DNA of 64,000 nucleotides from Thalassolituus hydrocarboniclasticus (GTDB lineage: Bacteria > Pseudomonadota > Gammaproteobacteria > Pseudomonadales > Oceanobacteraceae), in the NCBI RefSeq assembly GCF_025345565.1, contig NZ_CP054475.1, positions 1,704,448 to 1,768,447 on the forward strand. Direction: 5' to 3'. The notes under the pieces are model-generated. The model was not told the origin of the DNA, searched no databases, and saw only the letters and a list, made by a program, of their open reading frames with translations. Below, one piece after another: positions 24,458-48,097 of this stretch; positions within the stretch are counted from its first letter, which is position 1; each line of letters opens with the position of its first letter. A program made the position numbers and the translations under genes.

Positions 24458-25306
24458 TCAGGCTACCGCCTGTGCATTCAACTCAGCCTGCAGTTCTTTA
24501 TTGCTGCGTGCCATCGCTGCCACTTCCCCGACAATAATCAGCCCCGGACCATCGCTCTCGCTTTTCAGATAACGTTCGGCCAGATACGCAAGATCCATCA
24601 GTACGCCTTTAAAAACCTGTTGGTTGGCTAACGTACCGTTGGTGATTAAAGCCACCGGGGTGGATTCGTGCAGGCCTTCCTGCAGCAGTTGGGCGGTAAT
24701 CGGCCCGGCCTGGCGCAGGCCCATATAAAATACCCGGGTTGGATTCTGGCACGGAGAAAATTCGTTAAATTTGCTGTGGCCGGAATGCAGTACCAGCGCA
24801 TTGCCGTAATCGCGGTGGGTGAGGGGAATACCGGCTGCCGCGGCACAGCCTCCGGCGGCGGTAATGCCGGGGACAATATCCACTTCCACGCCGCGCTGTT
24901 GCAGGTATTCCATTTCTTCGCCGCCGCGACCAAAAATAAAAGGGTCACCGCCTTTTAAACGCACCACGCGCTGGTATTTTCCGGCTGCCGATAGTAAGGC
25001 TTTATTAATATCCTGCTGCGTCATTTTATGCGCGCCACAGCGTTTTCCGGTATGAATACGCGCACACTGGCGCGGCAGCAGGGCGAGAATATCGTCAGAA
25101 ATCAGGCTGTCGTACAGCACCACGTCGGCCTCGGCGATGACCCGCATGGCTTTTAAGGTCAGCAATTCCGGATCGCCCGGACCGGCGCCGACCAGCCAGA
25201 CTTTTCCTGAACCTTTCTGCTCTTTGCTGCCTGGTGGATTGGTCAGTTTGGATGCATGCAAAGAGGACGCACGTTTTACCGGATTTTTTGCCTGTATTGT
25301 CATCAT
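24458..25306 (-). CDS. cobA: Uroporphyrinogen-III C-methyltransferase
   Basis: A 282-residue SUMT. KVWLVGAGPGDPELLTLKA is the N-terminal P-loop-like SAM motif. VVRLKGGDPFIFGRGGEEME, VPGITAAGGCAAAAGIPLTHR and YMGLRQAG are family signatures. It makes precorrin-2, the precursor of siroheme, which nitrite reductase NirB needs. Its ATG overlaps the nasA stop by one base (TAATG), so cofactor and nitrate reductase are made together. No CysG oxidase/ferrochelatase half is fused here, so another gene must finish siroheme. The first 30 residues are a basic extension. Confidence 0.96.
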   Translation of the reverse strand: MMTIQAKNPVKRASSLHASKLTNPPGSKEQKGSGKVWLVGAGPGDPELLTLKAMRVIAEADVVLYDSLISDDILALLPRQCARIHTGKRCGAHKMTQQDINKALLSAAGKYQRVVRLKGGDPFIFGRGGEEMEYLQQRGVEVDIVPGITAAGGCAAAAGIPLTHRDYGNALVLHSGHSKFNEFSPCQNPTRVFYMGLRQAGPITAQLLQEGLHESTPVALITNGTLANQQVFKGVLMDLAYLAERYLKSESDGPGLIIVGEVAAMARSNKELQAELNAQAVA

Positions 25307-28062
25307 TATAATTCCACTGCAGTGCAGGCCGCGTCGCTGAACAGGGCTGCAGGTTGTGTATCGCTACCGGCGCTGTGGCTGGCCAGCAGGGTTTTTAATT
25401 CGGGAATGCAGGAGCCGCAATTGGTGCCGCAACGCAGAGCCTTGCCCAGTGCGTCGCTACTATCGCAACCGTTATTAATGGCCTGAATAATCTGTTTTTC
25501 ACCGATCTGGAAGCAGGAGCACACAATGGCACCATGATTCGGGGCATCAGCCGGTTGGCCAGCAAGCAGAGCACGGCGCTGCTGGCTGCTCAGTTCGCTC
25601 TGGGCAAAGCATTCGGTCAGCCACTGACGGTTACTGAACTGCAGATCTTTATGAACAAAAATGACGGCTTCAAGCTGGTTATTAACAATCAGAACATGGC
25701 GGTAATGTTGCTGAGCGGGGTCGCTCAGCGTTAACCACTGGCCTTTTAACGCTTGGTCCGGCAGCCGCTGACGCAGAGCATCGACAAACTCACCGGCATC
25801 GCCCTGACCAGCTACTTCGTAGACCATGCCAGGATGATGGATGTCGTCGCCAAACACACCGCAGGCCCAGTAAGCGCAATCCGGTGTGCCGATATCACGG
25901 CGGCTTAACACAAAGCCCTGCCACCCGGGGCGGAAAGGCTCGGCATTAACCGCACTGTATTTCAGTTCCGGCTGACCGGAGATGGCGTCCACGCTGTTGT
26001 CGGTCAGGGTGCCCATACGTGCGGCACTGGCGTAACGGCTGGTCCAGTGCATAGGTACAAATATTTCGCCGGTGCGCTGGTTATCACTGATATGGGCACG
26101 CAGCAGCAGGCTGCCACGGGGGTTGAATATCCGTACCAGTGAGCCGTCTTCAATCCCGCGCAGGGCGGCATCCTGCGGGTGAATATCGGCGTATGGTTCG
26201 CTGATATGCTGTGCCAGCCTCGGTGCTTTACCGGTGCGGGTCATGGTGTGCCAGTGATCGCGTACACGGCCGGTATTCATAATCAGATCGCCGCCAGTGC
26301 GTGGCAGTGGCAGTTCGGGAGCAACGGCAATAAAGCGTGCTTTACCGTTATCGGTATAGAAGCGACGGTCATCAAAAAAGCGTTGACGCCCCTGCGGATA
26401 TTGCGCATTCACCGGCCACTGTACCGGTGCCATGGCGTCGTACTGCGCGCGGCTCATACCGCTTAATCCGCTTAAATCAAAATCACGGCTGCCGTTATTT
26501 TCAAATGCCGAGAGTCTCGCATGTTCGTCAAAAATATCGGCCGGATGGCTGTAGTTAAATGCATCTGCATGACCCAGGGCATGGGCCACCTGGGTGACAA
26601 TCCACCAGTCGGGCATGGCTTCGCCCGGTGGTGGCAGAAAACCGCGCTGACGTGAAATGCGGCGTTCGGAGTTGGTGACGGTGCCGTTTTTCTCGCCCCA
26701 GCTGGCCGCTGGCAGCAATACATGGGCAGCGGCAGCAGTATCGGTATCGGCCATGCAATCGGAAACCACCACCAGTTCGCAGTGTTTGAGAGCTTCTTTT
26801 ACATCGTCGGCGTCGGGCATGCTGACCAGCGGGTTGGTGGACATAATCCACAGAAATTTGATCTCGCCGCGTTTAACGGCCTGAAACAGGTCAACGGCTT
26901 TCAGGCCCGGACGTTCGGCCAGATTGGATGCCTGCCAGAAGCGCCGTACCCGATCGCGCTCGGCAGCGGAAAAATCCATATGCGCAGCCAGCTGATTCGC
27001 CAGTCCGCCCACTTCACGGCCGCCCATGGCATTGGGCTGACCGGTAATGGAAAAGGGCGTGGCGCCGGGTTTACCAATACGGCCGGTGGCTAAATGCACA
27101 TTGATGATGGCATTGCCTTTATCGGTGCCGGTCGCGCTCTGGTTAATACCCTGAGAATAAAAAGTAACGGTGCGTGGGGTATCGGCAAACCAGTGAAAGA
27201 ACTGCGCCAGATCTGAGGCTTCTATATCCAGTTGCTCAGCAACCTCTTTCAGGCTGCGGCATTGTTGCCGTGCGGTCTCCAGCGCGCTGCCAAAGCCTTC
27301 GGTATGCAGGGCGATAAAATGGTGGTCGAGGTTATTGGTTTCACCGAGATACGCCAGCAGGGCGGTAAACAGAAAAGCATCACTGCCGGGGCGGATAGCC
27401 AGATGCAGATCGGCGAGATCACAGGTGGCGGTGCGGCGCGGATCAATCACCACCACTTTCATATCCGGGTTGGCTTTTTTCGCGGCCACCATGCGCTGAT
27501 ACAACACGGGGTGGGCCCATGCCGCATTGGAGCCGGTCAGCACCAGCAGGTCTGCCTGCTCTAAATCTTCGTAGCAGCCGGGGACGGTGTCGGAGCCAAA
27601 CGCACGCTTATAGGACGCCACGGCGGAAGCCATGCACAGACGGGAGTTGGTATCCATATTGGCGCTGCCGATAAAGCCCTTCATCAGCTTATTGGCAACG
27701 TAATAATCTTCGGTCAGCAGCTGGCCTGAGCCATAAAAGGCCACGGCATCCGGGCCATGGGTGTGGATTACCTGCTGAATTTTATCGGCAATCAGGTTGA
27801 TGGCCTGGCTCCAGCTGCTGCGCTGGCCGTTCATGAGCGGATACATCAGGCGGCCGTTATGGCTGATGGTTTCATGCAGCGCTGAACCTTTTACGCACAA
27901 GCGGCCGAAGTTAGACGGATGACGGCTGTCTCCGGCGACCGGTAACAGCTGTCCATTCTGCTGGCTGATATCAACGCCGCAGCCGACACCGCAGTAAGGG
28001 CAGGTGGTCTGCGTTTGCTGTGTGGCGGTTAACGGCGTTGCTGTCTGCTCAATGGCGCTCAT
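25306..28062 (-). CDS. nasA: Assimilatory nitrate reductase catalytic subunit
   Basis: A 918-residue molybdopterin oxidoreductase. The N-terminal [4Fe-4S] motif is CPYCGVGCGVDI with the fourth Cys in GRLCVKGS. The molybdopterin domains follow (YGSGQLLTEDYYVANKL, SRLCMASAVASYKRAFG, TGSNAAWAHPV, MWIMSTNP-type segment KFLWIMSTNPLVSMPD). The dinucleotide-binding domain is at about 690-810. A BFD-like [2Fe-2S] domain ends the protein (IVCSCFQIGEKQI, then RCGTNCGSCIPEL), as in Klebsiella NasA. It reduces nitrate to nitrite in the cytoplasm. The ATG at 28062 is chosen because the upstream in-frame extension overlaps the leader terminator. Confidence 0.96.
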   Translation of the reverse strand: MSAIEQTATPLTATQQTQTTCPYCGVGCGVDISQQNGQLLPVAGDSRHPSNFGRLCVKGSALHETISHNGRLMYPLMNGQRSSWSQAINLIADKIQQVIHTHGPDAVAFYGSGQLLTEDYYVANKLMKGFIGSANMDTNSRLCMASAVASYKRAFGSDTVPGCYEDLEQADLLVLTGSNAAWAHPVLYQRMVAAKKANPDMKVVVIDPRRTATCDLADLHLAIRPGSDAFLFTALLAYLGETNNLDHHFIALHTEGFGSALETARQQCRSLKEVAEQLDIEASDLAQFFHWFADTPRTVTFYSQGINQSATGTDKGNAIINVHLATGRIGKPGATPFSITGQPNAMGGREVGGLANQLAAHMDFSAAERDRVRRFWQASNLAERPGLKAVDLFQAVKRGEIKFLWIMSTNPLVSMPDADDVKEALKHCELVVVSDCMADTDTAAAAHVLLPAASWGEKNGTVTNSERRISRQRGFLPPPGEAMPDWWIVTQVAHALGHADAFNYSHPADIFDEHARLSAFENNGSRDFDLSGLSGMSRAQYDAMAPVQWPVNAQYPQGRQRFFDDRRFYTDNGKARFIAVAPELPLPRTGGDLIMNTGRVRDHWHTMTRTGKAPRLAQHISEPYADIHPQDAALRGIEDGSLVRIFNPRGSLLLRAHISDNQRTGEIFVPMHWTSRYASAARMGTLTDNSVDAISGQPELKYSAVNAEPFRPGWQGFVLSRRDIGTPDCAYWACGVFGDDIHHPGMVYEVAGQGDAGEFVDALRQRLPDQALKGQWLTLSDPAQQHYRHVLIVNNQLEAVIFVHKDLQFSNRQWLTECFAQSELSSQQRRALLAGQPADAPNHGAIVCSCFQIGEKQIIQAINNGCDSSDALGKALRCGTNCGSCIPELKTLLASHSAGSDTQPAALFSDAACTAVEL

Positions 28063-28086
28063 TGGCAATCCACTCTGAAAAATCCC

Positions 28087-28122
28087 AAAAAAAAGCGCCC
28101 ACAGGTTTTTACCTGTGAGCGC
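28087..28122 (-). terminator. Leader terminator (attenuator) of nasA
   Basis: On the minus strand a hairpin (arms 28122-28111 and 28106-28095, one mismatch, AAAA loop) is followed by eight U residues (28094-28087), 25 bases before the nasA ATG. An intrinsic terminator inside the 5' leader fits NasR-type antitermination, in which nitrate allows read-through. The nrtA leader holds a matching device and nasR is in the window. Confidence 0.8.
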
Positions 28123-28212
28123 CAATGCTCATTCTGCACAACATACGTTTCGTCGCGACAGGCCTTGTAAGCGCTGTGTATGACGGTTGGCATCTGCGTT
28201 GATGCCGGAAAC

Positions 28213-28229
28213 AGCCAGGTAGCGGCCAC
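28213..28229 (-). promoter_or_regulatory. Weak sigma-54 -24/-12 candidate for nasA
   Basis: The minus strand reads TGGCCGCTACCTGGCT, with GG and GC ten bases apart as sigma-54 needs, but the -12 half is poor. It would start transcription near 28202, giving a 140-base leader with the terminator in its second half, similar to nrtA. The rest of the 28123-28542 gap shows no gene I would support. Confidence 0.35.
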
Positions 28230-28542
28230 TTCGTTATCTGAAGCAATTCAAGATAAATGCCAATCCTGCAGAGCTGCCCTGAAAAAGAACGGCAAAGGCG
28301 CAGAATGGATCATCCGTGCAGGGCGGCACAGTATTTCGTCGGCCGGTATTGATTTGGCAAAGAATAAAAATGCGTTTTAGCGGAGCGCGGATTGGTCTTT
28401 ATGACTCAAATTGGTGCGAAGGTGCCTGTGATTTAGCAGGCACTGCCTGAGTTTGCGCTATAAGCAGGCAGAATCGTTGCTACACTCTGAAGATCGGCTC
28501 CAGGTGTGCCGGATCAATTTGTACAGAAAGGCCCGGTATGCG

Positions 28543-29883
28543 ATGACTGACGAAATAAATAACCCCGGAATAAAGCGACTGCTCGCCGAAATCCCTTTGC
28601 TGAATCGCCGTATTCAGCACTATCAGCCGGGTATGCCGATCACCATTCTGACGTTCGGTACCGGTACTGTACCGCCATCACTGGCGGAAAAAATCTGTGC
28701 GGCGGGTTACCGGCTGAAAGAGGTGGAATCCATATCGCATCTGCTGCATCACGAAGGTAATAACACCTGCGCCCTGATTGTTAATCTTGATTCTCTCAAT
28801 AACAAACAGCAGCAACGTGTGCTGCAGCTTGCACAGCAGAATCTGCATCTGCCGGTGCTGGCCATCAGCACAGCCAGCGGCCTGGAAGAGCGCATGGTCG
28901 CAATACGCATGGGGGCGCAGGCGTTTATTACCACGCCGGTTAACGATGATCAGGTTCTGGCGGAAATTAATGCTCTGACGGAGCGCTATGAACGCGACCC
29001 TTATCAGGTACTGATTGTTGACGATCAGCCTTCTGTGGCGGAGTTTCTTTCTTCTACTCTGCAGGAGGCGGGTTTTCATACCCATGTGATTACCAAGCCC
29101 ATGACCGAGCTTATGCCTTATCTGCAGAACCATATCCCCGATCTGATCCTGCTTGACCTCTATATGCCGGGCATTAATGGGCAGGAAATCGCCGGGGTTA
29201 TACGCCAGCAGGATAATCTGATCAGCGTGCCTATTGTTTTTCTGTCGAATGAAATCAGCCCCAAAGTTCAGGTGCAGGCCATGTGTACCGGCGCCGATGT
29301 TTTTTTAAGCAAACCGGTGCAGCCGGTTGATCTGTTGTTTGCCGTAGAATCGCGTATCCGTCGCGGCCGTATGGTACGAAATCTGGTGACCCGTGATTCG
29401 CTGACCGCGCTGCTGAACCGGCGTGAATCCATGCGCCGCCTGCAGGAAGAAGTGCTTCGCTGTCAGCGTTATGGCAATAAACTGTGCGTTGCGCTGCTCG
29501 ATCTGGACCGTTTTAAACGTATAAACGATACCTATGGTCATGCTGTCGGTGACCGGGTTATCAAACATTTTTCTTTGCAGTTAAAAGACAGTCTGCGTGA
29601 CGGCGACATTATTGGCCGTATCGGAGGAGAAGAATTTATAGTGGTGCTGCCGGAAACGACGCTGGCGGTTGCCCGGCGAACTTTTGAACGTCTGGCCGAA
29701 GAATTGCGCGAGAAACCGTTCAGTGATTTCTCCTATAGCTTTTCCGGAGGTCTGGTACGTTGCTTACCCGGGGTTATGGAAGATGCCCTGCTGGAGCAGG
29801 CAGACGTTGCCTTGTATGAAGCCAAAGCTGCGGGTCGTGATCGGGTTGTCTGTGTGGATCATCCGGTATCCGGACACGGATAA
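28543..29883 (+). CDS. PleD-like diguanylate cyclase, two receivers plus GGDEF
   Basis: A 446-residue protein. Residues about 25-120 form a degenerate receiver without a clear phospho-aspartate (LIVNLDSLNN). Residues about 128-245 are a full receiver (VLIVDDQPSVAEF, phospho-Asp in LILLDLYMPGING, Lys in VFLSKPVQP). The GGDEF domain follows (RDSLTALLNRRES, DLDRFKRINDTYGH) with active-site GGEEF and an inhibitory I-site RDGD five residues before it. It makes cyclic di-GMP in response to phosphorylation. The ATG at 28543 follows GAAAGG; in-frame codons upstream look non-coding. No partner kinase is adjacent. Confidence 0.92.
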   Translation: MTDEINNPGIKRLLAEIPLLNRRIQHYQPGMPITILTFGTGTVPPSLAEKICAAGYRLKEVESISHLLHHEGNNTCALIVNLDSLNNKQQQRVLQLAQQNLHLPVLAISTASGLEERMVAIRMGAQAFITTPVNDDQVLAEINALTERYERDPYQVLIVDDQPSVAEFLSSTLQEAGFHTHVITKPMTELMPYLQNHIPDLILLDLYMPGINGQEIAGVIRQQDNLISVPIVFLSNEISPKVQVQAMCTGADVFLSKPVQPVDLLFAVESRIRRGRMVRNLVTRDSLTALLNRRESMRRLQEEVLRCQRYGNKLCVALLDLDRFKRINDTYGHAVGDRVIKHFSLQLKDSLRDGDIIGRIGGEEFIVVLPETTLAVARRTFERLAEELREKPFSDFSYSFSGGLVRCLPGVMEDALLEQADVALYEAKAAGRDRVVCVDHPVSGHG

Positions 29884-29921
29884 AAAAAGCCACACGCGGA
29901 ATTCTCTGAATCCGGTGTGGC
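29882..29921 (-). terminator. Minus-strand terminator behind the GGDEF gene
   Basis: An imperfect hairpin (outer arms 29889-29895 and 29915-29921, GCCACAC/GTGTGGC) has a U7 tract only on the minus strand (29882-29888). On the plus strand no T-run follows. It thus looks like an intrinsic terminator for a transcript coming leftward from the 29.9-30.3 kb gap, where no minus-strand gene is evident. Confidence 0.5.
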
Positions 29922-30188
29922 GAGTGCGCGAATCCGCTTCACAGAGTGAGCGTTTAACGGCCTGAGCATCGCAGGAATCCAATCTCAGCGCAGCCCCTTT
30001 TATTACTCTTGCCTGCCAATCATGTCATTGTTTCTAAGCTTGTCTCATACCCAGTCTATGGCTTTACCTCTTTTGCACTTTTTTATTCCGGCTTGTCTTT
30101 CATTGGTGCCGTTGTCTGGTGTCTGAACGGCGCGGCGGCGGATCTTTTTGTGCAACCCTTACCGTAAATCTTCGCCCGGGATCATTAT

Positions 30189-30205
30189 TGCCCTTAATAA
30201 GGGCA
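30189..30205. promoter_or_regulatory. Palindrome upstream of nirB
   Basis: TGCCCTT-AAT-AAGGGCA is a perfect 7-3-7 palindrome about 105 bases upstream of the sigma-54 -24 element, where an activator would bind. It does not match the NarL 7-2-7 pattern and is a poor NtrC site. The 546-base gap between the GGDEF gene and nirB otherwise holds the minus-strand terminator and the promoter. Confidence 0.4.
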
Positions 30206-30309
30206 GGTTACGGTTTATCCGATATTTTCTGGTGCACTTTCCCTGCATAAAACCCGATCCGGCGCCATAAACAGGCTGTTGATTGCTGAAAACAGGGCAA
30301 ATTTATTCT

Positions 30310-30326
30310 TTGGCATTCATGTTGCT
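30310..30326 (+). promoter_or_regulatory. Sigma-54 promoter of nirBD
   Basis: TTGGCATTCATGTTGCT has GG and GC exactly ten bases apart and matches the TGGCAC-N5-TTGCA consensus at nearly every informative base. Transcription would start near 30338, about 93 bases before the nirB ATG. TGCACTTTCCCTGCA (30233-30247) upstream is a possible degenerate NtrC site. Nitrogen-limitation control is inferred. Confidence 0.75.
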
Positions 30327-30430
30327 AAACCCCTTGTGATGTTTTTGCACTGCAACGGCGTGGTGTGAAAATAGAGCAACGATGCAAATACAGGAGAAAT
30401 CAGATTATGACCCGATAGCGAGGCCATCCC

Positions 30431-32995
30431 ATGAGCAAAAAGCGTATTATCGTCGTTGGCAACGGCATGGTTGGACACAACTTTATCAACACTCTTGCCA
30501 CCTCCGAACATTCCTCCGAATTTGAACTCGTTACCTTCTCAGAAGAACCGCGTCTGGCTTATGACCGGGTACAGCTGAGCAAATACTTTTCCGGCTATAC
30601 CGCCGCTGATCTGGCACTGACCACAACAGATGATTATGAACGTCAGGGCGTGGTATTTACCCTGAACGATAAAGTCGTGGCCATTAACAGTCATGAAAAA
30701 ACCATCACCACCGCCAGTGGCCGTAAAGAAGGTTACGACAAGCTGGTACTGGCAACCGGTTCTTACCCTTTTGTTCCGCCAATTCCGGGCAAAGACCAGG
30801 ATCACTGTCTGGTTTACCGTACTATTGAAGATCTTGAAGCGATTTCTGCCTCGGCCGCCGTGAGTAAAACCGGTGTTGTTGTGGGGGGCGGGCTGTTAGG
30901 TCTGGAAGCCGCAAACGCGTTAAAACAGGCCGGGCTGGAAACCCATGTCGTGGAATTTGCGCCGCGTTTAATGGCCGTACAGCTGGACGAAGGCGGCGGT
31001 AAATTACTGCGCCGTAAAATCGAAGATCTGGGCGTTACTGTTCATACCGAAAAAAATACCAAAGAAATTGTTGCCGGGCAGGAATGCCGCTATCGCATGA
31101 ATTTTGCCGATGGCAGTTTTCTGGAAACCGATATGATTCTGTTCTCTGCCGGTATCCGTCCGCAGGATGAACTGGCGCGTCAGTTCGGACTGGATCTGGG
31201 TGAACGTGGCGGTATTGTTATTAACGATTACTGTCAGACATCCGATGACGATATTTATGCCATTGGTGAATGCGCACTGTGGGATAACAAAATTTTCGGT
31301 CTGGTTGCTCCCGGCTATCAGATGGCCAAAGTCAGTGCCGCACATATTGTCAGTTCGTTAATTACCCACGAAGAACCGGCACTGGCCTTTAAAGGTGCCG
31401 ATATGAGCACCAAACTTAAATTGCTGGGCGTTGATGTTGCCTCTATTGGTGATGCACACGGACATACTGCCGGCAGTCAGAGTTATGTATTTAATGACGA
31501 TATTGCCGAAGTCTATAAACGCCTGATTGTTTCTGCCGATGGTAAAAAATTGTTGGGTGCGGTGCTGGTGGGTGAGGCTGAGGCTTACGGTACGCTGTTG
31601 CAGTTAATGCTGAACGATATGGATATTCCCGGTAACCCGGCGGCACTGATTCTGCCAGCGGTGGATGGTGAAGCTTCCGTCGGACTGGGCGTTGCTGCCT
31701 TACCGGAAACGGCTCAGATCTGTTCCTGTTTTGATGTTACCAAAGGTGATCTGGCGGCAGCGGTGCAGGGCGGTTGTTGCACCATGGGGGATATTAAAGA
31801 CGCGACCAAAGCCTCAACCGGCTGTGGTGGTTGTTCTGCACTGGTGAAGCAGGTGATGGATTCTGAGCTGGTGGCTCTTGGTGTTGAGGTTAATAATAAT
31901 CTGTGCGAACACTTTGCTTATACCCGTGCTGAGCTGGCGGATATTATCCGTGTTAAAGGCTACACCACCTTTGCTCAGGTATTGCAGGGGCATGGTAAAG
32001 GCCATGGCTGTGAAATCTGTAAGCCAACGGTCGGTTCTGTACTGGCCTCCTTCCATAACGAATACATTCTGAAAGACGAGCATATCGGTCTGCAGGATAC
32101 CAATGATATCTTCCTCGGTAATATGCAGAAAGACGGTACTTACTCCATTGTGCCGCGTATTGCCGGTGGTGAAATTACGCCGGATAAACTGATCGTACTG
32201 GGTGAAATTGCCAAAGAATACGACCTATATACCAAAATTACCGGTGGACAGCGTATCGATTTATTCGGCGCGCAATTACACGAATTGCCGCAGATCTGGG
32301 AGCGTCTGGTTGCTGCCGGATTTGAAACCGGCCATGCCTACGGTAAATCGCTGCGCACGGTGAAATCCTGTGTTGGCAGTACCTGGTGTCGCTACGGTGT
32401 GCTCGACAGTGTGTCGATGGCGATTGCACTGGAGAACCGCTACAAAGGCCTGCGTGCACCACACAAAATTAAGTTCGCCGTATCCGGCTGTACCCGCGAA
32501 TGTGCGGAGGCACAGAGCAAAGACATCGGTGTTATTGCCACCGAAAAAGGCTGGAACTTATATGTCTGTGGTAATGGCGGTATGCGTCCGCGTCATGCCG
32601 ATTTATTTGCCACCGAACTGGACGATGAAACCCTGATTAAAACCATTGACCGTGTACTGATGTTTTATGTACGCACCGCCGACCGTCTGCAGCGCACGTC
32701 GGTATGGATGGAAAACCTTGAGGGCGGACTGGATTACCTGCGTGAGGTCGTGGTCGACGACAAACTGGGTATCTGCAGCGAACTGGAAGATGCCATGACC
32801 CGCGTCGTGAGTACTTACCAGTGCGAATGGAAAACAACACTGGAAAATCCGCAAAAACTCAAACGCTTCCAGCATTTTATTAATGCCGATGAAGATGACA
32901 GCAACCTGCTGTATGTGCGTGAACGTGGTCAGCGCCGTCCGGCAACCGCAACCGAGCGGATTGAACTGGTTAACCTCAGCAGTGTGCAGAACTGA
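30431..32995 (+). CDS. nirB: NADH-dependent nitrite reductase, large subunit
   Basis: An 854-residue protein of normal NirB length. FAD domain: IIVVGNGMVGHNF and the second dinucleotide motif GVVVGGGLLGLEAANAL. BFD-type [2Fe-2S] domain: QICSCFDVTKGDL with STGCGGCSALV. The siroheme/[4Fe-4S] nitrite reductase domain carries CVGSTWC (C-x5-C) and SGCTRECAEAQ (C-x3-C). It reduces nitrite to ammonium with NADH in the cytoplasm. The ATG has CGAGG 7 bases upstream. Next gene is nirD, 16 bases on. Confidence 0.98.
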   Translation: MSKKRIIVVGNGMVGHNFINTLATSEHSSEFELVTFSEEPRLAYDRVQLSKYFSGYTAADLALTTTDDYERQGVVFTLNDKVVAINSHEKTITTASGRKEGYDKLVLATGSYPFVPPIPGKDQDHCLVYRTIEDLEAISASAAVSKTGVVVGGGLLGLEAANALKQAGLETHVVEFAPRLMAVQLDEGGGKLLRRKIEDLGVTVHTEKNTKEIVAGQECRYRMNFADGSFLETDMILFSAGIRPQDELARQFGLDLGERGGIVINDYCQTSDDDIYAIGECALWDNKIFGLVAPGYQMAKVSAAHIVSSLITHEEPALAFKGADMSTKLKLLGVDVASIGDAHGHTAGSQSYVFNDDIAEVYKRLIVSADGKKLLGAVLVGEAEAYGTLLQLMLNDMDIPGNPAALILPAVDGEASVGLGVAALPETAQICSCFDVTKGDLAAAVQGGCCTMGDIKDATKASTGCGGCSALVKQVMDSELVALGVEVNNNLCEHFAYTRAELADIIRVKGYTTFAQVLQGHGKGHGCEICKPTVGSVLASFHNEYILKDEHIGLQDTNDIFLGNMQKDGTYSIVPRIAGGEITPDKLIVLGEIAKEYDLYTKITGGQRIDLFGAQLHELPQIWERLVAAGFETGHAYGKSLRTVKSCVGSTWCRYGVLDSVSMAIALENRYKGLRAPHKIKFAVSGCTRECAEAQSKDIGVIATEKGWNLYVCGNGGMRPRHADLFATELDDETLIKTIDRVLMFYVRTADRLQRTSVWMENLEGGLDYLREVVVDDKLGICSELEDAMTRVVSTYQCEWKTTLENPQKLKRFQHFINADEDDSNLLYVRERGQRRPATATERIELVNLSSVQN

Positions 32996-33011
32996 TTATT
33001 AGGAGCCGAAC

Positions 33012-33377: not shown

Positions 33378-33386
33378 GGCTGCATA

Positions 33387-33716: not shown

Positions 33717-33736
33717 TAGCTTCAATTGTTGAAACG

Positions 33737-33755: not shown

Positions 33756-33771
33756 TGATATTAATTACCGG

Positions 33772-38506: not shown

Positions 38507-38545
38507 TGTTTCTTTAGAATGCGCTTTGTCAGTGAGTAATTGGCC

Positions 38546-40081: not shown

Positions 40082-40082
40082 T

Positions 40083-40415
40083 ATGAATACCTGGTGGATT
40101 CTGGCGATTGCGATTATCGCCGAAGTGATCGCAACCTCGGCGTTAAAAGTCAGCGAAGGTTTTACCCGTTTAATTCCTTCGCTGGTGGTGGTGGTTGGTT
40201 ATGGCATTGCCTTTTATGGTTTGGCCCTGACATTAAAAACCATTCCGGTCGGCGTTGCTTATGCTATCTGGTCGGGCATGGGCATTGTTCTGGTTACCCT
40301 GATTGGCTGGTTTTTATTCGATCAGAAACTCGATCCGGCGGCTATTATCGGTATGGTGCTGATTGTTGCCGGGGTCGTGGTGATGAATGTTTTTTCTGCC
40401 AGTAGCGGTCACTGA
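40083..40415 (+). CDS. Small multidrug resistance (EmrE-type) exporter
   Basis: A 110-residue, four-helix SMR protein. The essential membrane glutamate is in [13 protein letters not shown] (E14), and TM3 carries [13 protein letters not shown], both as in EmrE. It exports quaternary cations in exchange for protons. It starts two bases after the mocR stop codon and is probably co-transcribed. Confidence 0.95.
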
Positions 40416-40433
40416 TAATCTTTCAGCACCGTA

Positions 40434-41702: not shown

Positions 41703-41724
41703 GTTCTGTCTCCTTCGCTGACAG

Positions 41725-41750
41725 ATGGCGGTACCACAGGGCACCGCCAT
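41725..41750 (-). other. Intercistronic hairpin before the FAD subunit gene
   Basis: ATGGCGGT (41725-41732) pairs with ACCGCCAT (41743-41750) in the 84-base gap between the porin and FAD reductase genes. It has no U-tract. It may set relative expression within the operon. Confidence 0.4.
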
Positions 41751-41786
41751 ATTGCTTTAAGACTGAGTATTAAGGCTGATGCTTAA

Positions 41787-42962
41787 TCAGAATTTTGCTT
41801 CCAGCCACAGCCAGGCTTTGTCGCTGTCGGTGCCGGTATCACCGGCGCTGTAGGCGGCGTATTTCACACCAGCGCTGTAATGCTCAGCAAAGCTTTTAGC
41901 GGCGAGAAAATTAACCTCACTGCCTTTATCATCACTGCCTTCGTCAGTGCTGTAGTCATGGTACATGGCCAGCAATTTGACACCGGCGACGGCACCCGTG
42001 GCTTTAATATAGGTATCACTCAGACCATCGGCCGGAGTTACCAGGAATTTGTCTGCCCAGCCATTAAACGCATGTTTGGTGGCTAACGGGGTCTGGAATC
42101 CATAGGCGCCGTCATCACTGCCAAGGGTTTCATTGCCCAGTGCGAGAGTAATGCCGGATAACACCACGCCGCCTTCCAGGGCATAATAACCGGCATCAAA
42201 ATCATCGCTGGATTGGGTGGCAAATTCAGCACTGTAAATCAGGTTAATATCATTGACGGCCGTTTTTCCGGCAAAGCGCACACCATAGGTATCCAGCTTG
42301 GCGTCACTGTCGTCATCCTTTAATAAATAGGCGTAACCGGTCAGGTTTCCGGCTTTGAGTCCGGAGTAGGTGGCATTAAGTAAATGGCTGGTAACGTCGG
42401 CATCAAATTTACGCAGAATACCGTTCACCTGATCGATGTAAGCGTATTGAAGGTTAAGATCGCCGGTTTTATAGCCTGCTTTTAGCGCATCAAACGTTTG
42501 TTCATTCTGACGCCAGCCGACATTACCGACGAAGCGGGCATTATCGAGAATAATACGCTGACGACCGGCTACAAGGCTGAAGCCATCTTTGCTGTAGCTG
42601 ATCTGGGCACGGTTGATCTCGGTGTTCTCCGGATCGGCAACGGTATCATAATCGGTATTTTCCGGAGCATAGTCGTCGATAACTGCGCGTACATCTTCAA
42701 TTTCGTACAGCACTTTAAAGCCGTTGAAATCGGCTGTTTCGTACCCCAGGCGTGAACGCAGAGTGAGTGCCGTGGCAGAGTCTTTATCGGCAGCATCGTC
42801 ATCATCAACGCTTTCATAGCGCAGGCGAAGATCAATAATGGCGTCACCTTTTTTCAGCATATCAACAGCCGTCTCTTCTGCCAGTACACTCTGACTGAAG
42901 ACAAGCTGGCTGATGGCTAAACTCAGGGCAGTAGCTGACAACGTTTTTTTTGTTTGCATCAT
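41787..42962 (-). CDS. Outer-membrane porin of the alginate-export type
   Basis: A 391-residue exported protein with signal peptide (TALSLAISQLVFSQSVLA). Alternating beta strands with aromatic girdles follow throughout (LRLRYESVDDDDA, NLQYAYIDQVN, LIYSAEFATQS), and a terminal phenylalanine (WLWLEAKF) serves assembly of beta barrels. It resembles the alginate_export family of barrels. Position between nrtD and the FAD subunit gene suggests it brings nitrate across the outer membrane; that is inference. A second ATG one codon in is possible. Confidence 0.85.
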   Translation of the reverse strand: MMQTKKTLSATALSLAISQLVFSQSVLAEETAVDMLKKGDAIIDLRLRYESVDDDDAADKDSATALTLRSRLGYETADFNGFKVLYEIEDVRAVIDDYAPENTDYDTVADPENTEINRAQISYSKDGFSLVAGRQRIILDNARFVGNVGWRQNEQTFDALKAGYKTGDLNLQYAYIDQVNGILRKFDADVTSHLLNATYSGLKAGNLTGYAYLLKDDDSDAKLDTYGVRFAGKTAVNDINLIYSAEFATQSSDDFDAGYYALEGGVVLSGITLALGNETLGSDDGAYGFQTPLATKHAFNGWADKFLVTPADGLSDTYIKATGAVAGVKLLAMYHDYSTDEGSDDKGSEVNFLAAKSFAEHYSAGVKYAAYSAGDTGTDSDKAWLWLEAKF

Positions 42963-42986
42963 TCTTTCTCCGGTATTTGATTAAAA

Positions 42987-43925
42987 TCAGGCAGTTTTTA
43001 ACTGGTTAGCTTTATCCTGATCCGGTGTATGAGCATGGGAATGCCCGGCCGGGGTGTTTATCGCGCGGGTTTCATTATTTTCTTTTATTATTTGGGAACC
43101 TGAGACCTGACCATGGGGTTGCGTGGCAGGCAGGCTGTCATCAGTCTTACGCTGTTTTTCATAAAGGAAACTCAGCACCTGATGGCGGTAATGGTTGTAG
43201 CGTGGGTCATCAGCTAACTGCAGGCGGTTACGTGGCCGCTCCAGATCGATGTCCAGAATTTCACCGATGGTAGCGGCGGGGCCGTTGGTCATCATAACGA
43301 TGCGGTCAGACAGTAAGACCGCTTCATCGACATCATGGGTAATCATAATGACGGTGTTATTCAGCTCTTTCTGGATGTCCATTAATGAATCCTGAAGGTG
43401 CGCACGCGTCAGGGCGTCGAGTGCACCAAAAGGCTCATCCATTAATAACACCTGAGGCTCCATCGCCAGTGCCCGGGCGATGCCCACGCGTTGCTTCATG
43501 CCACCGGAAATTTCATCCGGACGTTTATGCATGGCATGGGTCATATGCACCAGCTCCAGATTGTGCTCAATCCAGGCTTTCATTTCGGCTTTGGATTTTT
43601 TGCCACGGAATACCTGTTTTACTGCCAGCTCGACATTTTCATAAGCACTGAGCCAGGGCAGCAGGGAGTGGTTCTGAAAAACCACCGCACGTTCAGGACC
43701 TGGCTCGTTCACTTCTTTACCATTCAGAACTACGCCGCCTTCGGTTGCCTGCAGCAGACCGGCAACAATATTCAGCACGGTGGATTTGCCGCAGCCGGAG
43801 TGGCCGATCAGTGAAATATACTCACCTTTATTAATCTTAAGATCGACACTCTGCAACGCGCGGAAACTGCCTTTTGCGGTGCTGAATTCAATACCTACCT
43901 GAGTCAGTTCGAGTAGTGGGTTCAT
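42987..43925 (-). CDS. nrtD: Nitrate ABC transporter ATP-binding protein
   Basis: A 312-residue ATPase: Walker A GHSGCGKST, signature ISGGMKQRVGIARALA, Walker B VLLMDEPFGALD, and ITHDVDEAVLLSDR. This is the NrtD/SsuB/TauB subgroup used for nitrate, sulfonate and taurine. A C-terminal tail of about 50 residues is polar with a His-rich AGHSHAHT stretch and no counterpart in the core domain. Energises uptake through NrtB. In the operon nrtA-nrtB-nrtD-porin-FAD subunit. Confidence 0.95.
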   Translation of the reverse strand: MNPLLELTQVGIEFSTAKGSFRALQSVDLKINKGEYISLIGHSGCGKSTVLNIVAGLLQATEGGVVLNGKEVNEPGPERAVVFQNHSLLPWLSAYENVELAVKQVFRGKKSKAEMKAWIEHNLELVHMTHAMHKRPDEISGGMKQRVGIARALAMEPQVLLMDEPFGALDALTRAHLQDSLMDIQKELNNTVIMITHDVDEAVLLSDRIVMMTNGPAATIGEILDIDLERPRNRLQLADDPRYNHYRHQVLSFLYEKQRKTDDSLPATQPHGQVSGSQIIKENNETRAINTPAGHSHAHTPDQDKANQLKTA

Positions 43926-43940
43926 AATTTTCTCCGATTC

Positions 43941-44957
43941 TCAGCGTAAGGTGGCGGACTTATCCCAGGAAACACTCCGTTGCAGCAGCAACATAATGCG
44001 GTCAAGGGCAAAACCAATTAAGCCGATGGTAATAACCGCGACCATAATACGGCCGAGGGAATTTGAGCTGCCGTTCTGGAATTCGTCCCAGACGAATTTT
44101 CCGAGTCCGGGGTTTTGTGCCAGCATTTCCGCCGCAATCAGCACCATCCAGGCGATACTCAGCGACAGACGAAGACCGGTAAACATCATCGGAATAGCGG
44201 CAGGTAACACAATTTTCCGTACATGAGTCAGCCAGCTTAAACGCAGCACCTGACTGACATTTTTTAAATCCTGAGAAATAGAGGCGACGCCCACGGCGGT
44301 ATTAATAACGGTTGGCCACAGGCAGCAGAGCATGACGGTAATCATGGAAGTGACAAAAGACTTTGCTACAACCGGGTCATCGCTGACATAGACAGCGCTG
44401 ACCACCATAGTGACCAGTGGCAGCCAGGCCAGAGGTGATACCGGTTTGAAAATCTGAATCACCGGGTTAAATGCTGAGTACAGGTTGGCACTTAAACCAA
44501 TAACTATACCCAGCGGAATGGCGATCAGTGAGGCAATCAGAAAACCGCTCAGAACTGTAATCAGGCTGGTACCAATCTGATCGACGTAGGTTGGCTTACC
44601 GGTGTAGTCGCGGATTTTGACGATATAATCCGGGTCCTGTGCCAGACGCCGGGCATTACGTTCATCCTGGCGCTGGTAGAACGCTGCGGCTTTTTCACGT
44701 TCGGTAATATGTTCGCTGATCAGGGTTTTACTCTGGATCAGGACATCGGCAGGTCCGGGGAATTTTCCCAGAGAGGTGTTAATGCTTGATGCGGCCGCAT
44801 GCCAGATCATTAAAAACACCAGAATCCCTGCCAGAGGAATGCCGATGGCTTTGGCAATAATGCTCAGGTTCTGGCTTCGGTTTTCTCCCTGAGCGGCTTT
44901 AATCATCGGTTCCAGCCAGCTTATTTTGCTTAATGTTTGGGTCAGGGCAATGCTCAT
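43941..44957 (-). CDS. nrtB: Nitrate ABC transporter permease
   Basis: A 338-residue permease of the BPD type with the EAA-like loop (ILRLSWLTHVRKIVLPAAIP split around it) and GLRLSLSIAWMVLIAAEML, both standard in NrtB. A long cytosolic or periplasmic insert (about 75-125, ADVLIQSKTLISEHITEREKA) follows the first helix. It forms the inner-membrane channel with NrtD ATPase. Confidence 0.95.
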   Translation of the reverse strand: MSIALTQTLSKISWLEPMIKAAQGENRSQNLSIIAKAIGIPLAGILVFLMIWHAAASSINTSLGKFPGPADVLIQSKTLISEHITEREKAAAFYQRQDERNARRLAQDPDYIVKIRDYTGKPTYVDQIGTSLITVLSGFLIASLIAIPLGIVIGLSANLYSAFNPVIQIFKPVSPLAWLPLVTMVVSAVYVSDDPVVAKSFVTSMITVMLCCLWPTVINTAVGVASISQDLKNVSQVLRLSWLTHVRKIVLPAAIPMMFTGLRLSLSIAWMVLIAAEMLAQNPGLGKFVWDEFQNGSSNSLGRIMVAVITIGLIGFALDRIMLLLQRSVSWDKSATLR

Positions 44958-45015
44958 AGGATCTCCTTGACGGATTCAGTTGACTGCACAATGTCGATGA
45001 ATGTGTGATGGTTTT

Positions 45016-45035
45016 CCGGCTGTTTTAACAGCCGG
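45016..45035 (-). other. Intercistronic hairpin between nrtA and nrtB
   Basis: CCGGCTGTT-TT-AACAGCCGG, a perfect 9-bp stem, sits in the 91-base gap between nrtA and nrtB. As in the dctP-dctQ gap, it falls right behind the binding-protein gene and probably raises its message level over the permease. Confidence 0.55.
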
Positions 45036-45048
45036 CTTATTCCCTGTG

Positions 45049-46446
45049 TTACAGCTTTTGCTCGCCTTTCAGGCCGATAGCAAACTTCTGCAGGTAAGCA
45101 TTCGGTTGCTGACCGTCATAGGTGATGTTGTCGATAAATTCCGTTTGTGGGGCACGGAAGCCGCTTTCATTGCTGAAGTCAGGAAAGTCTTTGGCATCGG
45201 CTTTACCTTCAGCAATCAGTGCTTTGGCTGCTTCTGCGTAAATGTCAGGGCGATACACTTTTTTCGCGATGTCTTTGTACCAGTCATCCGGTTTAGCTTC
45301 GGCAATCTGGCCCCAGCGGCGCATCTGTGTCAGATACCAGATGGCATCGGAGTAATAAGGGTAGGTGGCGTTGTAGCGGAAAAAGACATTGAAATCCGGT
45401 ACAGAGCGCTTATCGCCTTTTTCATACTCGAAAGTACCGGTCATGGAGTTAGCAATCACTTTGTAATCGGCACCGACATACTGTGGTTTGGCCAGAATTT
45501 TTACCGCCTCCTCGCGGTTGGCATTATTATTTTCATCAAGCCAGGCGGCAGCACGGATCAGTGCTTTGACCACACGCTTGTGAGTGTTCGGATATTTTTC
45601 TGCCCAGGTTTTGCTGACGCCAAATACTTTTTCCGGATTGTTTTTCCAGATTTCGTAGTCGGTAATCACCGGAACACCAATGCCTTTAAAGACGGCCTGC
45701 TGGTTCCAGGGTTCGCCTACGCAATAACCATAAATCGTACCGGCTTCCATCGTTGCCGGCATTTGTGGTGGCGGTGTAACCGAAAGCAGGGCATCAGCAT
45801 TCAGCTGACCGGAGGTATCGCCTTTTGCCGGAGCGTAATAACCCGGGTTAATACCGCCAGCCGCCAGCCAGTAGCGTAATTCGTAGTTGTGGGTGGATAC
45901 CGGAAAAACCATGCCCATATTAAATGGCTTACCCTGGGCTTTGTATTTTTCTATAACGGGTTTCAGGTAATCGGCTTTAATCGGGTGTACGGGTTTCCCT
46001 TCAGAATCTTTGGGGATAAAGGGTTTCATTTGCTGCCAGACATCATTGGAAACAGTAATGGCATTGCCGTTTAAATCCATACTGAAGGCGGTAATGATAT
46101 CGGCTTTGGTGCCAAATCCGATGGTTGCGCCCAATGGCTGGCCCGCCAGCATATGAGCGCCATCCAGCTGGCCATCAATCACGCGGTCGAGTAATACTTT
46201 CCAGTTTGCCTGTGCTTCGAGGGTGACATACAAGCCTTCGTCCTCAAAGAAACCCTTTTCATAGGCAATAGCGAGCGGTGCCATATCGGTTAATTTAATA
46301 AAACCGAATTTAAGCTCTTCTTTTTCCGGATAATCATCAGCATGACTGAGTGGTATCGATAATGCCGATAAACCACAGGCCAGACCTGTGGTCAGAATCA
46401 ATGCACTTTTTATCAGAGTGCGGCGCAGAGTGTTCAGTCCTTGCAT
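45049..46446 (-). CDS. nrtA: Nitrate ABC transporter substrate-binding protein
   Basis: A 465-residue CmpA/NrtA-family binding protein. The N-terminus has a twin-arginine-like signal ([12 protein letters not shown], then hydrophobic core to SHA), so export may be by Tat. [20 protein letters not shown] opens the fold; [16 protein letters not shown] and [15 protein letters not shown] are NrtA ligand-site segments. It binds nitrate in the periplasm. The ATG at 46446 follows AAGGGGA; a start eight codons earlier is less likely. First gene of its operon, with an attenuated leader. Confidence 0.95.
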
Positions 46447-46468
46447 GGTCTTCCCCTTTCTTGGCAAC

Positions 46469-46507
46469 AAAAAAAAGGCGCCACAACGGTTGCCCGTTGT
46501 AAGCGCC
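46469..46507 (-). terminator. Leader terminator (attenuator) of nrtA
   Basis: The minus-strand RNA forms a stem of GGCGCTTACAACGG with CCGTTGTGGCGCC (46507-46494 and 46489-46477, one bulge, four-base loop), followed by eight U (46476-46469), 22 bases before the nrtA ATG. This is an intrinsic terminator in the 5' leader, matching NasR control of nasF in Klebsiella. Confidence 0.85.
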
Positions 46508-46534
46508 TTTGCTGTTAAAATGTGTCAGTACGGT

Positions 46535-46550
46535 TACCCGCCATTGGGTA
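46535..46550 (-). promoter_or_regulatory. Hexaloop hairpin, likely NasR (ANTAR) target
   Basis: On the minus strand UACCC-AAUGGC-GGGUA forms a 5-bp stem with a six-base loop that has A at position 1 and G at position 4. That is the signature of ANTAR-protein binding hairpins. It lies about 28 bases upstream of the leader terminator and about 20 bases after the predicted start. A second, adjoining hexaloop was not clear. Confidence 0.6.
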
Positions 46551-46580
46551 TGCACTGAATAAGAAATTCAGAATAAGTAT

Positions 46581-46597
46581 TGCCAGAAGCGTGCCAG
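46581..46597 (-). promoter_or_regulatory. Sigma-54 promoter of nrtA operon
   Basis: The minus strand reads CTGGCACGCTTCTGGCA, with TGGCACG at -24 and GGCA at -12 and GG/GC exactly ten bases apart. Transcription would begin near 46570, giving a 124-base leader. The element lies between nasR and nrtA. Confidence 0.7.
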
Positions 46598-46710
46598 AGT
46601 TTTCGGACAATGTCCGTCTATGGCGTTTTTTACGCATTTAAATCCGCTAACTTCCTGTTTTTATTTGGATTGCAATCAACCGTAAGGCTTTTAAAAGCGG
46701 TTGTCGGGAA

Positions 46711-46750
46711 TAAAAAAATCCCTGCGTTTTTACGGCAAGGATTTTTTTTT
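46711..46750 (-). terminator. Intrinsic terminator of nasR
   Basis: Minus-strand AATCCTTGC pairs with GCAGGGATT around a short loop, followed by a U7 tract. The plus strand also has a T9 run after the stem, so it could work both ways. It ends nasR transcription 60 bases after the stop and insulates the nrtA promoter. Confidence 0.75.
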
Positions 46751-46810
46751 GCTCTGCTGAAGAGCAGGTTATGCGCTGGTGCTGCGACTTGGTGCAGTGC
46801 ACAACCTGAT

Positions 46811-48097
46811 TTAAAGAAGCTCGGTCATGCTTAATAAACCGGCAGCAACATCGACCAGACGACGGTTCTGATTCATCGCCATACTGCGTAATAACGCATA
46901 GGCTTCCTGTTCGCTCATCTGGCGGCGCTGAATCAGTTCACGTTTGGCGCGGTCAATCAGTTTGCGCTCATGCAGTTCTGTACGGGCGGCATCGAGTTCA
47001 TCATTCAGGCTTTTTAAGCGTTGGCCCTGAGCTTCGATTAATTCGACCACCGGCTTACTGACGTTATGTACCATATCGTCATCAGGGCCGCTGAGGGTGT
47101 GGTCTGACTCATGCCCGGCGGACTGTGAATGGCTGACGTACAGAGCAAACGAAGGAACATCGTCGAACGCTCCGCGTTGCAGGTCATGGCCTTGTTGGTC
47201 GGGACTTAATGCCGCTTCGCGTACCGCAAGAATGCGTTGCTGGCTGTGGGAGAGGAGTTGAGTTTCCAACACTTCTTCGACATATTTGATGGCATCCAGC
47301 CGTTCAGAACAGCAGATAAACCAGCGCACATCATAATCAGCGGCTGCCAGTGACTGCGGACCGGCAGTCAGGGCCAGACGCCGCAGGCGTTCAAATTCGA
47401 GCTGGAATTCACCGCGCTGAACCTGTTCCCAGGCGCTCAAAGCTTCGTCACTGGCGTAGTCGGTAAAGATATGAAAACAGCGATCCTGGCGGTCAATTAA
47501 TTGTGTCAGGCGCTGGCGCAGGCCGGGGTCAAATTCATGAGCGGAAAATCCGGCAGCACCACAGGCGCGCTCCTGTCCGGCCAGCTCTTTGCCCTGCATT
47601 AAATTAAACATGGCGACGAGAATGCGCGCGGTGATTTCATCGGCCGCGTTGCCTGCGGCCTCGAACACCACGGCCAGTAAGCTCTGGATCATTTCGGAAT
47701 AGGCTTTGATGGCAACGGTGGTATTGAATTTCAGCTGCTCTACATCCTGACGCAGTTGTGGCAACCGTTCGAGACTGTGCAGGGCATAACCCAGACGGCG
47801 AAACCAGCGCGCGGGAAAAGCATGCTGCCCGTGCTCTGGCAGTAAGTTGGCCAGAGCCTTATGAAACAGCGCCAGCTGCTCATTACTGCTGTGCCACTGT
47901 TGTTGCAGTTCTTGCTGGCAGCGCAGGCCGGCACTGCCGAGAAAACGGTTGGATAATCCGCGTTCGTACTGCAGCTGATGCAACAGATTGCTGATGGCAA
48001 TCACCAGTTGGCCGGTACGGGCAAACTGTTCAAGTTCCTGTATTTCCTGTTGCTGACCGAGGTTCAGAAAGTAGGCAACGCTGTGAAGATCCTGCAC
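46811..48097 (-). CDS. nasR: Nitrate-responsive antiterminator NasR (NIT-ANTAR)
   Basis: A 428-residue protein starting at GTG with AAGGA about 10 bases upstream. The N-terminal NIT domain (about 30-290) is helical with the family's QLQYERGLSNRFLGS segment; this domain binds nitrate in Klebsiella NasR. The C-terminal ANTAR domain (about 360-428) reads DRAKRELIQRRQMSEQEAYA then LLRSMAMNQNRRLVDVAAGL. It binds leader RNA and prevents termination when nitrate is present. Likely targets are the nrtA and nasA leaders in this window. It lies directly upstream of nrtA, as in other nas clusters. Confidence 0.95.
   Translation of the reverse strand: MQDLHSVAYFLNLGQQQEIQELEQFARTGQLVIAISNLLHQLQYERGLSNRFLGSAGLRCQQELQQQWHSSNEQLALFHKALANLLPEHGQHAFPARWFRRLGYALHSLERLPQLRQDVEQLKFNTTVAIKAYSEMIQSLLAVVFEAAGNAADEITARILVAMFNLMQGKELAGQERACGAAGFSAHEFDPGLRQRLTQLIDRQDRCFHIFTDYASDEALSAWEQVQRGEFQLEFERLRRLALTAGPQSLAAADYDVRWFICCSERLDAIKYVEEVLETQLLSHSQQRILAVREAALSPDQQGHDLQRGAFDDVPSFALYVSHSQSAGHESDHTLSGPDDDMVHNVSKPVVELIEAQGQRLKSLNDELDAARTELHERKLIDRAKRELIQRRQMSEQEAYALLRSMAMNQNRRLVDVAAGLLSMTELL

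Follow-up and report, generated by a model that had tools for sequence, protein, structure and literature searches.

Leaders with the ANTAR hairpin motif before nitrate assimilation operons of Thalassolituus hydrocarboniclasticus and their predicted control by NasR

The window analysed here, a 64,000-nucleotide (nt) stretch of the single-contig, 4.07-Mb genome of Thalassolituus hydrocarboniclasticus (G000 in our sample), holds a nitrate assimilation locus in which two operons are each preceded by a leader with an intrinsic terminator. The genes, named from Pfam domains, similarity and gene order, form two units on the minus strand, nrtA-nrtB-nrtD-porin-nasB (46446 to 40434) and nasA-cobA (28062 to 24458). 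The ATG codons of nrtA (46446) and nasA (28062) are separated by 18.4 kb, with nirBD and narK on the plus strand between the units. NCBIfam cut-offs are passed by cobA, nirB and nirD, but not by nasA, nrtA and nrtB among the matches listed; nrtB falls short of the TIGR01183 cut-off (161.9 against 209.05), and the best 25 matches listed for nasA, including NasC at 460.6 bits, are all under theirs. The gene nasR (48097-46811) is the upstream neighbour of nrtA, from which a terminator of its own separates it, and its product matches the Pfam domains NIT (168.5 bits) and then ANTAR (59 bits), both over the cut-off. An earlier, sequence-only reading had described separate operons about 18 kb apart, eight-U terminators 22-25 bases before each ATG, an intact nasR beside nrtA and a coupling of cobA to nasA; each of these holds, the terminators ending 24 nt (nasA) and 22 nt (nrtA) before the start codons and the nasA stop and cobA start sharing one base (TAATG, 25308-25304). 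The features are collected in Table 1.

Table 1. Genes, leader elements and putative promoter sites at the nitrate assimilation locus (window coordinates)
Feature	Coordinates	Strand	Basis
nasR, predicted one-component nitrate sensor/antiterminator (NIT + ANTAR)	46811-48097	-	Pfam NIT 4.4e-49, ANTAR 3.9e-16; PDB 4akk (K. oxytoca NasR) 5.6e-43
Terminator after nasR, setting it apart from nrtA	46716-46744	-	hairpin and T run
nrtA, nitrate-type ATP-binding cassette substrate-binding protein (named by context)	45049-46446	-	Pfam NMT1_2 338.5 bits; no NCBIfam name over cut-off
nrtB, nrtD, Alginate_exp-type porin, nasB-like flavin adenine dinucleotide (FAD) reductase (rest of nrt operon)	40434-44957	-	domains/similarity
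nasA, assimilatory-kind molybdopterin nitrate reductase (named by domains and context)	25306-28062	-	Pfam Molybdopterin, Molydop_binding, Molybdop_Fe4S4, Fer2_BFD
cobA, uroporphyrinogen-III C-methyltransferase	24458-25306	-	TIGR01469 272.2 bits, over cut-off
nrtA P1 hairpin, UACCC-AAUGGC-GGGUA	46535-46550	-	5/6 pairs changed on both sides in relatives
nrtA P2 hairpin, AGC-AAAGGC-GCU, overlaps terminator	46502-46513	-	dual-hexaloop scan, alignment
nrtA leader terminator and U8	46469-46507	-	stem 46507-46477, 8 T 46476-46469
nasA P1 hairpin, GGCAUC-AACGCA-GAUGCC	28189-28206	-	4/6 pairs changed on both sides in relatives
nasA P1-P2 linker, 57 nt, with clade-specific, nearly invariant insert (about 37 nt)	28132-28188	-	leader comparison
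nasA P2 hairpin, UGAGC-AUUGGC-GCUCA, overlaps terminator	28116-28131	-	dual-hexaloop scan, alignments
nasA leader terminator and U8	28087-28123	-	13-bp stem 28123-28094, 8 T 28094-28087
sigma54-like site upstream of nasR, TGGTACTCATTTTGCA	48147-48162	-	10/11 consensus positions; weak alone
sigma54-like putative promoter of nrtA, TGGCACGCTTCTGGCA	46581-46596	-	10/11 positions
sigma54-like putative promoter of nasA, TGGCATTTATCTTGAA	28247-28262	-	9/11 positions
sigma54-like site before nirB (no attenuator found by dual-hexaloop scan)	30311-30326	+	pattern match

The decisive feature, absent from the sequence-only reading, is the ANTAR recognition motif in both leaders. As described in PMC3369931, this motif consists of two hexaloop hairpins with A at loop position 1 and G at position 4, the second of which shares bases with the terminator. 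Each of the two leaders has such a pair of hairpins, P1 and P2, with P2 overlapping the 5' arm of the terminator; a C:G pair closes the loop in 4/4 of them. The consensus selected in vitro with Klebsiella oxytoca NasR by systematic evolution of ligands by exponential enrichment is a hexaloop C-A..G..-G with C:G on top (PMC7496416), and all four window hexaloops fit it. Terminator-like sites are common in the region (44 in 28000-47999, against 23.2 +/- 5.0 in shuffles) and the terminators alone therefore prove little; it is the dual hexaloop that makes the case. P2-like hairpins over a terminator occur six times in the window (both strands, 64 kb), and P1 is also present only at nasA and nrtA. 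Thirty dinucleotide shuffles of the window gave 0.57 P2-like sites per shuffle and no instance (0/30) of P1, P2 and terminator together. The folds are more stable than those of shuffled leaders (z -3.29 for nasA and -6.56 for nrtA; 0/200 shuffles as stable in each case). The scan found no dual hexaloop with terminator in the regions upstream of nirB (29880-30460) and narK (33370-33800), and no attenuator behind the sigma54-like site upstream of nasR.

Conservation of the leaders was followed in 44 genomes of the window's GTDB family. Two alignments with 19 leaders apiece, A1 for nasA and A2 for nrtA, served to make the models R1 and R2, respectively; the leaders were taken from 21 referenced nasA leaders (27 matched in all) and 23 nrtA leaders (29 in all). 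Among genomes with an ANTAR protein, the automatic scan saw both hairpins at 22/29 nasA loci, one P1 being doubtful, and flagged 19/28 nrtA loci, some with a doubtful P1; most of the others of both kinds were recognised by eye or by R1 or R2. In A1, P1 and the terminator are paired in 97.4% of cells and 10 pairs are changed on both sides, with a covariation of 0.411, compared with 0.212 in shuffles (0/500 as high) and no more than 0.099 when slid. The corresponding values for A2 are 86.7% paired and 0.351 against 0.149, above 500/500 shuffles. P2 is nearly invariant within the nasA leaders. A further alignment, A4, combines 27 leaders of three classes (10 nasA, 10 nrtA and 7 of the formate/nitrite transporter (FNT) class described below), the long-linker nasA leaders being excluded. 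In A4, P1 and P2 are 91.5% paired, with a covariation of 0.747 against 0.265 in shuffles, and P2 itself is paired in 95.4% of cells with 3/4 pairs changed on both sides. The 3' columns of P2 pair in the terminator as well (93.2% paired, taken with P1); a predicted two-state design, P2 or terminator, is visible in the alignment.

The sequence-only reading placed the switch at two sites. The two leaders of the window bear this out, but it is an undercount, as a third leader precedes an FNT gene outside the window; the genome has at least three leaders of predicted NasR type, not two. The third lies at C1:1497807-1497714 (L196:2321-2414, minus strand), about 207 kb from the window start, before a gene (C1:1497664-1496822) that matches PF01226 at 226.5 bits and is followed by a PP2C-kinase gene. 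It comprises a sigma54-like site (TGGCACGTCTTCTGCT), P1 (CACAUC-AACGGC-GAUAUG, one mismatch), P2 (GGAU-AACGGC-GUCC) and a terminator; its P2 closes with U.G, unlike the C:G of the window hairpins. This leader was missed by R1, R2 and the strict scan and was first seen by eye. The scan was relaxed afterwards (U.G closing, any outer stem), and in this form, which has no shuffle control, it finds both hairpins at 16/25 FNT loci of ANTAR genomes, P2 alone at a 17th (G043) and a leader at 0/5 loci of ANTAR-less genomes. Model R3, partly built from the FNT leader, recovers nasA, nrtA and FNT leaders in 8/9 genomes of the genus. Some of these leaders were among its training rows, but not the FNT leaders of G036, G039, G041, G042 and G043. 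In G037 it finds the nasA leader and a porin-nasB leader (29.2 bits). In G000, R3 at E <= 5 returns the nrtA, FNT and nasA leaders and one other match, C1:990877 (36.2 bits), which was rejected as a terminator between convergent genes where no P2 hairpin was seen. Weak R1 matches in the same genome (C1:1419286, 648977 and 603937; 30.7, 28.0 and 24.6 bits) were also set aside, the scan finding no P1, P2 and terminator there.

The leaders occur together with ANTAR proteins, which are present in 31/44 family genomes. An nrtA orthologue (at least 76% identity) is found in 35 genomes; the leader precedes it in 29/29 that have an ANTAR protein versus 0/6 that do not. Those 29 leaders were identified by R2 (24, of which 19 are training leaders picked by scan or eye), by R1 (G002) and by the scan (G023, G026, G021 and G025), while R1, R2 and the upstream scan found none in G004, G006, G007, G009, G010 and G012. 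On a cautious count that leaves out G021 and G025 (27/29 versus 0/6) the Fisher test gives 1.7e-5. For nasA the leader is present in 27/31 ANTAR genomes (26 by R1, including 19 training leaders, and G013 by R2 and the scan) and absent from 8/8 readable upstream stretches of ANTAR-less genomes; the latter control is weak, because nasA follows a nasB-like gene in all eight and may not head its operon. A ninth ANTAR-less genome, G011, lacks sequence upstream of nasA, and a Fisher test that had counted it (27/31 versus 0/9) was set aside for that reason. G013 has a second leader at C20:11910 (41.5 bits). Across the class, NIT-ANTAR loci are found in 11/369 genomes including G000, and a scan of the ten loci beyond the family, over 1.5 kb or less on each side, found no leader.

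The single ANTAR match in G000 at E <= 0.001 is NasR itself, which is 99% identical to NasR of Thalassolituus alkanivorans TMPB967. K. oxytoca NasR positions named for RNA binding or for the predicted nitrate pocket are E175, R176, R340, K341, K347, R366, N373 and an aromatic residue at 362, and R is tolerated at K345 (PMC7496416). The G000 protein keeps the first seven, with Y for W362 and R for K345 (the row for L022, genome G037, is void in this comparison). Control of both the nasA and nrtA leaders by NasR is well supported as a prediction from sequence. The suggestion of the sequence-only reading that one antiterminator probably serves both leaders gains from the motif, which is conserved and covarying, and from NasR being the sole ANTAR protein.

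A second layer of control may lie in the promoters; NtrC is known to control nas genes. A sigma54-like site with 9 or 10 of 11 consensus positions begins 26-44 nt before P1 in 23/23 nrtA leaders examined and 52-87 nt before P1 in 21/21 nasA leaders examined; many of these sites have GT or GA in place of the usual -12 GC. Across the window the pattern occurs no more often than expected by chance (45 sites versus 49.0), and only the fixed place of the sites before the leaders suggests sigma54.

From the motif, the terminators, their conservation and covariation and the single ANTAR protein, it is very probable that the nrtA, nasA and FNT leaders belong to a two-layer nitrate regulon, in which the promoter class, NasR binding and nitrate dependence are the parts that we infer. 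Under nitrogen limitation NtrC and sigma54 would start transcription at the three promoters. With no nitrate, the leader terminator would fold and RNA polymerase would stop. When nitrate is present, NasR would bind it through the NIT domain, and its ANTAR domain would grip the A1/G4 hexaloops of P1 and P2 in the nascent leader; formation of P2 would remove the 5' arm of the terminator, allowing read-through into nrtABD-porin-nasB, nasA-cobA and the FNT operon.

Several observations weigh against this proposal. The P1-P2 linkers, 57 nt in the nasA leader and 21 nt in the nrtA leader, are both longer than those that Enterococcus faecalis EutV tolerates: its linkers are 5-12 nt, 14 nt reduced induction (PMC3369931), and antitermination in vitro was lost when 20 nt were added (PMC8934654). 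P2 of the nrtA leader has a stem of only 3 bp, the minimum for a hairpin of this motif. Rfam gives no match at the gathering score in the window, and none to an ANTAR family (the strongest match under the threshold, sok with E 0.048, overlies the nrtA leader and was taken as chance). The models R1-R3 match their training leaders by construction, and the co-occurrence with ANTAR proteins does not represent many independent events, since the six ANTAR-less genomes with nrtA are one genus. Two of the five covariation measures are also reached by many shuffles: further pair types are equalled by 171, 270, 482 and 280 of 500 (A1, A2, A4 P1+P2 and A4 terminator), and the number of pairs with both bases changed is equalled by 82, 300 and 261 of 500 (A2, A4 P1+P2 and A4 terminator; not A1). 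The other measures are inflated by the relatedness of the sequences, and the shuffle counts therefore cannot be taken as probabilities. Finally, two residues that make NIT-ANTAR contacts in K. oxytoca NasR are replaced in the G000 protein, E191 by G and E359 by Q. In K. oxytoca a change of E191 raised read-through regardless of nitrate (PMC7496416), and therefore looser nitrate control is possible in G000; position 191 varies among relatives.

Two readings would take NasR away from these leaders altogether. The terminators could be ordinary ones that insulate the genes from upstream transcription and regulate nothing, as might be thought from the excess of terminator-like sites across the region. 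Insulation leaves the dual hexaloop and its covariation unexplained, and there is little to insulate, since nasA is preceded by a divergent gene and nasR ends in a terminator of its own; we regard this as very improbable. Alternatively, the leaders could be attenuators served by another ANTAR protein such as NasT, with NasR acting elsewhere. This would accord with 7 other family genomes that have leaders of the same kind and whose one ANTAR protein is NasT-like, but the only ANTAR domain in G000 is that of NasR, and the idea is barely tenable there, even less so than insulation.

The length of the nasA linker raises a different question. Linkers of 57 nt are found in the nasA leaders of G000, G036, G039 and G042, whereas the linker is 20-28 nt in 16/21 nasA leaders having P1 by the automatic scan. 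In K. oxytoca nasF, NasR binding needs part of the P1-P2 linker (PMC3369936). It is conceivable that NasR control is confined to nrtA (and FNT), and that in this clade the nasA leader has drifted out of it because P1 and P2 are too distant, its terminator now giving a fixed basal level or some other response. EutV allows no such extension, and R3 scores the nasA leader lowest of the three in G000 (40.5 bits), through the linker stem rather than P1. Against this, the proportion of variable columns in the four genomes is 1/18 in P1, 2/37 in the insert and 1/45 in P2 and the terminator, compared with 23/38 in the upstream spacer. Since these parts are near-frozen while the spacer varies, the nasA P1 looks to be still under selection. 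Long linkers are, furthermore, also present in the nasA leaders of G002 (47 nt) and G003 (read by eye), where the extension differs from that of the G000 clade. We consider loss of control over nasA unlikely, though a less remote prospect than the two readings above, and retain NasR control of all three leaders as the favoured reading.

The insert itself was examined for origin and structure. It folds to -11.7 kcal/mol, no better than shuffles (z 0.29), and was rejected as an unusually stable hairpin; it can fold, no more. The inserts of G002 and G003 fold better (z -1.30 and -3.06), with the outer pair kept through a G-C to A-U change. The insert of the G000 clade shares 10 identical bases with the nrtA leader, a match that beats shuffles (p 0.002 for G000, 0.051 for G042), but the idea that it is a copied piece of that leader was rejected, since other places in the window score equally and shuffled inserts match as well (median best 24.5 versus 23); there is also no second copy in the genome. 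In the linker of nasA leaders (28144-28136, minus strand; columns 63-71 of A1) a conserved GTGTTGTG-like stretch, ATGTTGTGC in the window, was not seen in nrtA leaders. Part of it is paired with P2 by RNAalifold and it may, for that reason, disfavour P2.

Both the operon layout and the ANTAR protein beside these leaders differ across the family. In one genus (G021, G023 and G026) a single leader heads an unbroken nrtA-nrtB-nrtD-porin-nasB-nasA-cobA operon, and NasT- and NasS-like genes lie upstream. Other genomes have the cluster split, and leaders stand on the pieces, on nrtA and nasA in G000, with nasB as a third in G014 and G020, and on porin-nasB in G037. These layouts, one leader on the uncut operon and two or three on the cut ones, can be set side by side genome by genome, and NasR, known as the switch of one operon, would here govern a regulon of scattered sites. 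Two loci outside the family, L007 and L008, show one leader in front of nirB, and nasA lies downstream. Among the genomes with leaders, 6 have the window-type NasR, 14 a second NIT-ANTAR protein (33-37% identity), 7 only a NasT-like protein, and 4 both the second NIT-ANTAR and a NasT-like protein. NasT-like was judged by length and neighbours, with receiver and ANTAR domains shown for G014 only. In G040 and G041 the FNT leader adjoins the gene for the second NIT-ANTAR protein. It can be proposed, tentatively and at rather less than even chance, that the leaders are fixed RNA sockets which outlive their regulator (NasR, the second NIT-ANTAR protein or NasST) and remain on the pieces of a cut operon, and that the nasA switch of the G000 clade works at 57 nt, with the insert replacing the short spacing regarded as obligatory for antitermination by ANTAR proteins. 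A single genus, with linkers of 22-25 and 57 nt before the same gene, offers a natural test of the need of ANTAR proteins for closeness of P1 and P2.

The nearest known system is NasR and nasF of K. oxytoca, which likewise has a NIT-ANTAR sensor, P1 and P2 hexaloops with A1, G4 and C:G, and a P2 exclusive with an intrinsic terminator. It differs in having one leader on one nasFEDCBA operon, whereas the G000 operons are split, two of the leaders lying in the window and the third outside it; G000 has no single nas operon with all nas genes behind one leader. The two NasR proteins are distant relatives (150.9 bits only against 4akk). The contrast with Klebsiella drawn in the sequence-only reading is fair (PMC7496416), and the one-operon, one-leader form exists inside the family too. 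EutV resembles the system proposed here in that one ANTAR protein serves several dual-hexaloop attenuators, acting at four eut sites and ef0120 (PMC3369931, PMC7496416); it differs in its ethanolamine signal, received via a kinase, and in its short linkers. NasST of Pseudomonas aeruginosa and of Bradyrhizobium (nos, nap, nirA) is also a nitrate-controlled ANTAR antitermination system, but senses through two proteins, and in the window's family NasT-like proteins accompany nasA and nrtA leaders in genomes without NasR. The P. aeruginosa NasST target, nirBD-PA1779-cobA, reportedly ends in cobA, as a paper title has it. NasT has several targets in Bradyrhizobium (PMC6759348). ANTAR regulons predicted by Ramesh et al. 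in 2012 in Pelobacter and Desulfotomaculum, with other regulators and in other lineages, likewise extend over a number of operons, each preceded by an ANTAR leader. Many of these operons belong to nitrogen metabolism; nitrogenase, glutamate synthase and nitrate/nitrite genes, transporters among them, are included (PMC3369931). Multi-site ANTAR regulation is already known, and since several targets per regulator have been published (PMC3369931) the arrangement in G000 is less unusual than the sequence-only reading implied; less ordinary are the long nasA linker and the regulator exchange. In the open-licence literature, at the level of titles and abstract openings, no report was found of NasR at more than one leader or of leaders in this lineage.

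Other features lie close to these genes. Adjoining narK (35431-37341) is a gene for a PP2C phosphatase fused to a Ser/Thr kinase, and a relative stands behind the FNT gene of the third leader in this genome; these proteins may control nitrate/nitrite transport at the protein level. Between nirD and narK (33385-33718) is an element of 334 bp whose ends are inverted over 24 bp (TAGGGCCTGTCGACACTAA..., 96% complementary) and which has 12 further copies in the genome, full or shortened, with best pieces at 86-96% identity; it looks like a member of a family of miniature inverted-repeat transposable elements. A response regulator with a GGDEF domain (28453-29883) is divergent from nasA and has its upstream region in common with it. 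Near cobA (22122-24323) there is an OsmC-YcaO fusion with a YcaO_C domain.

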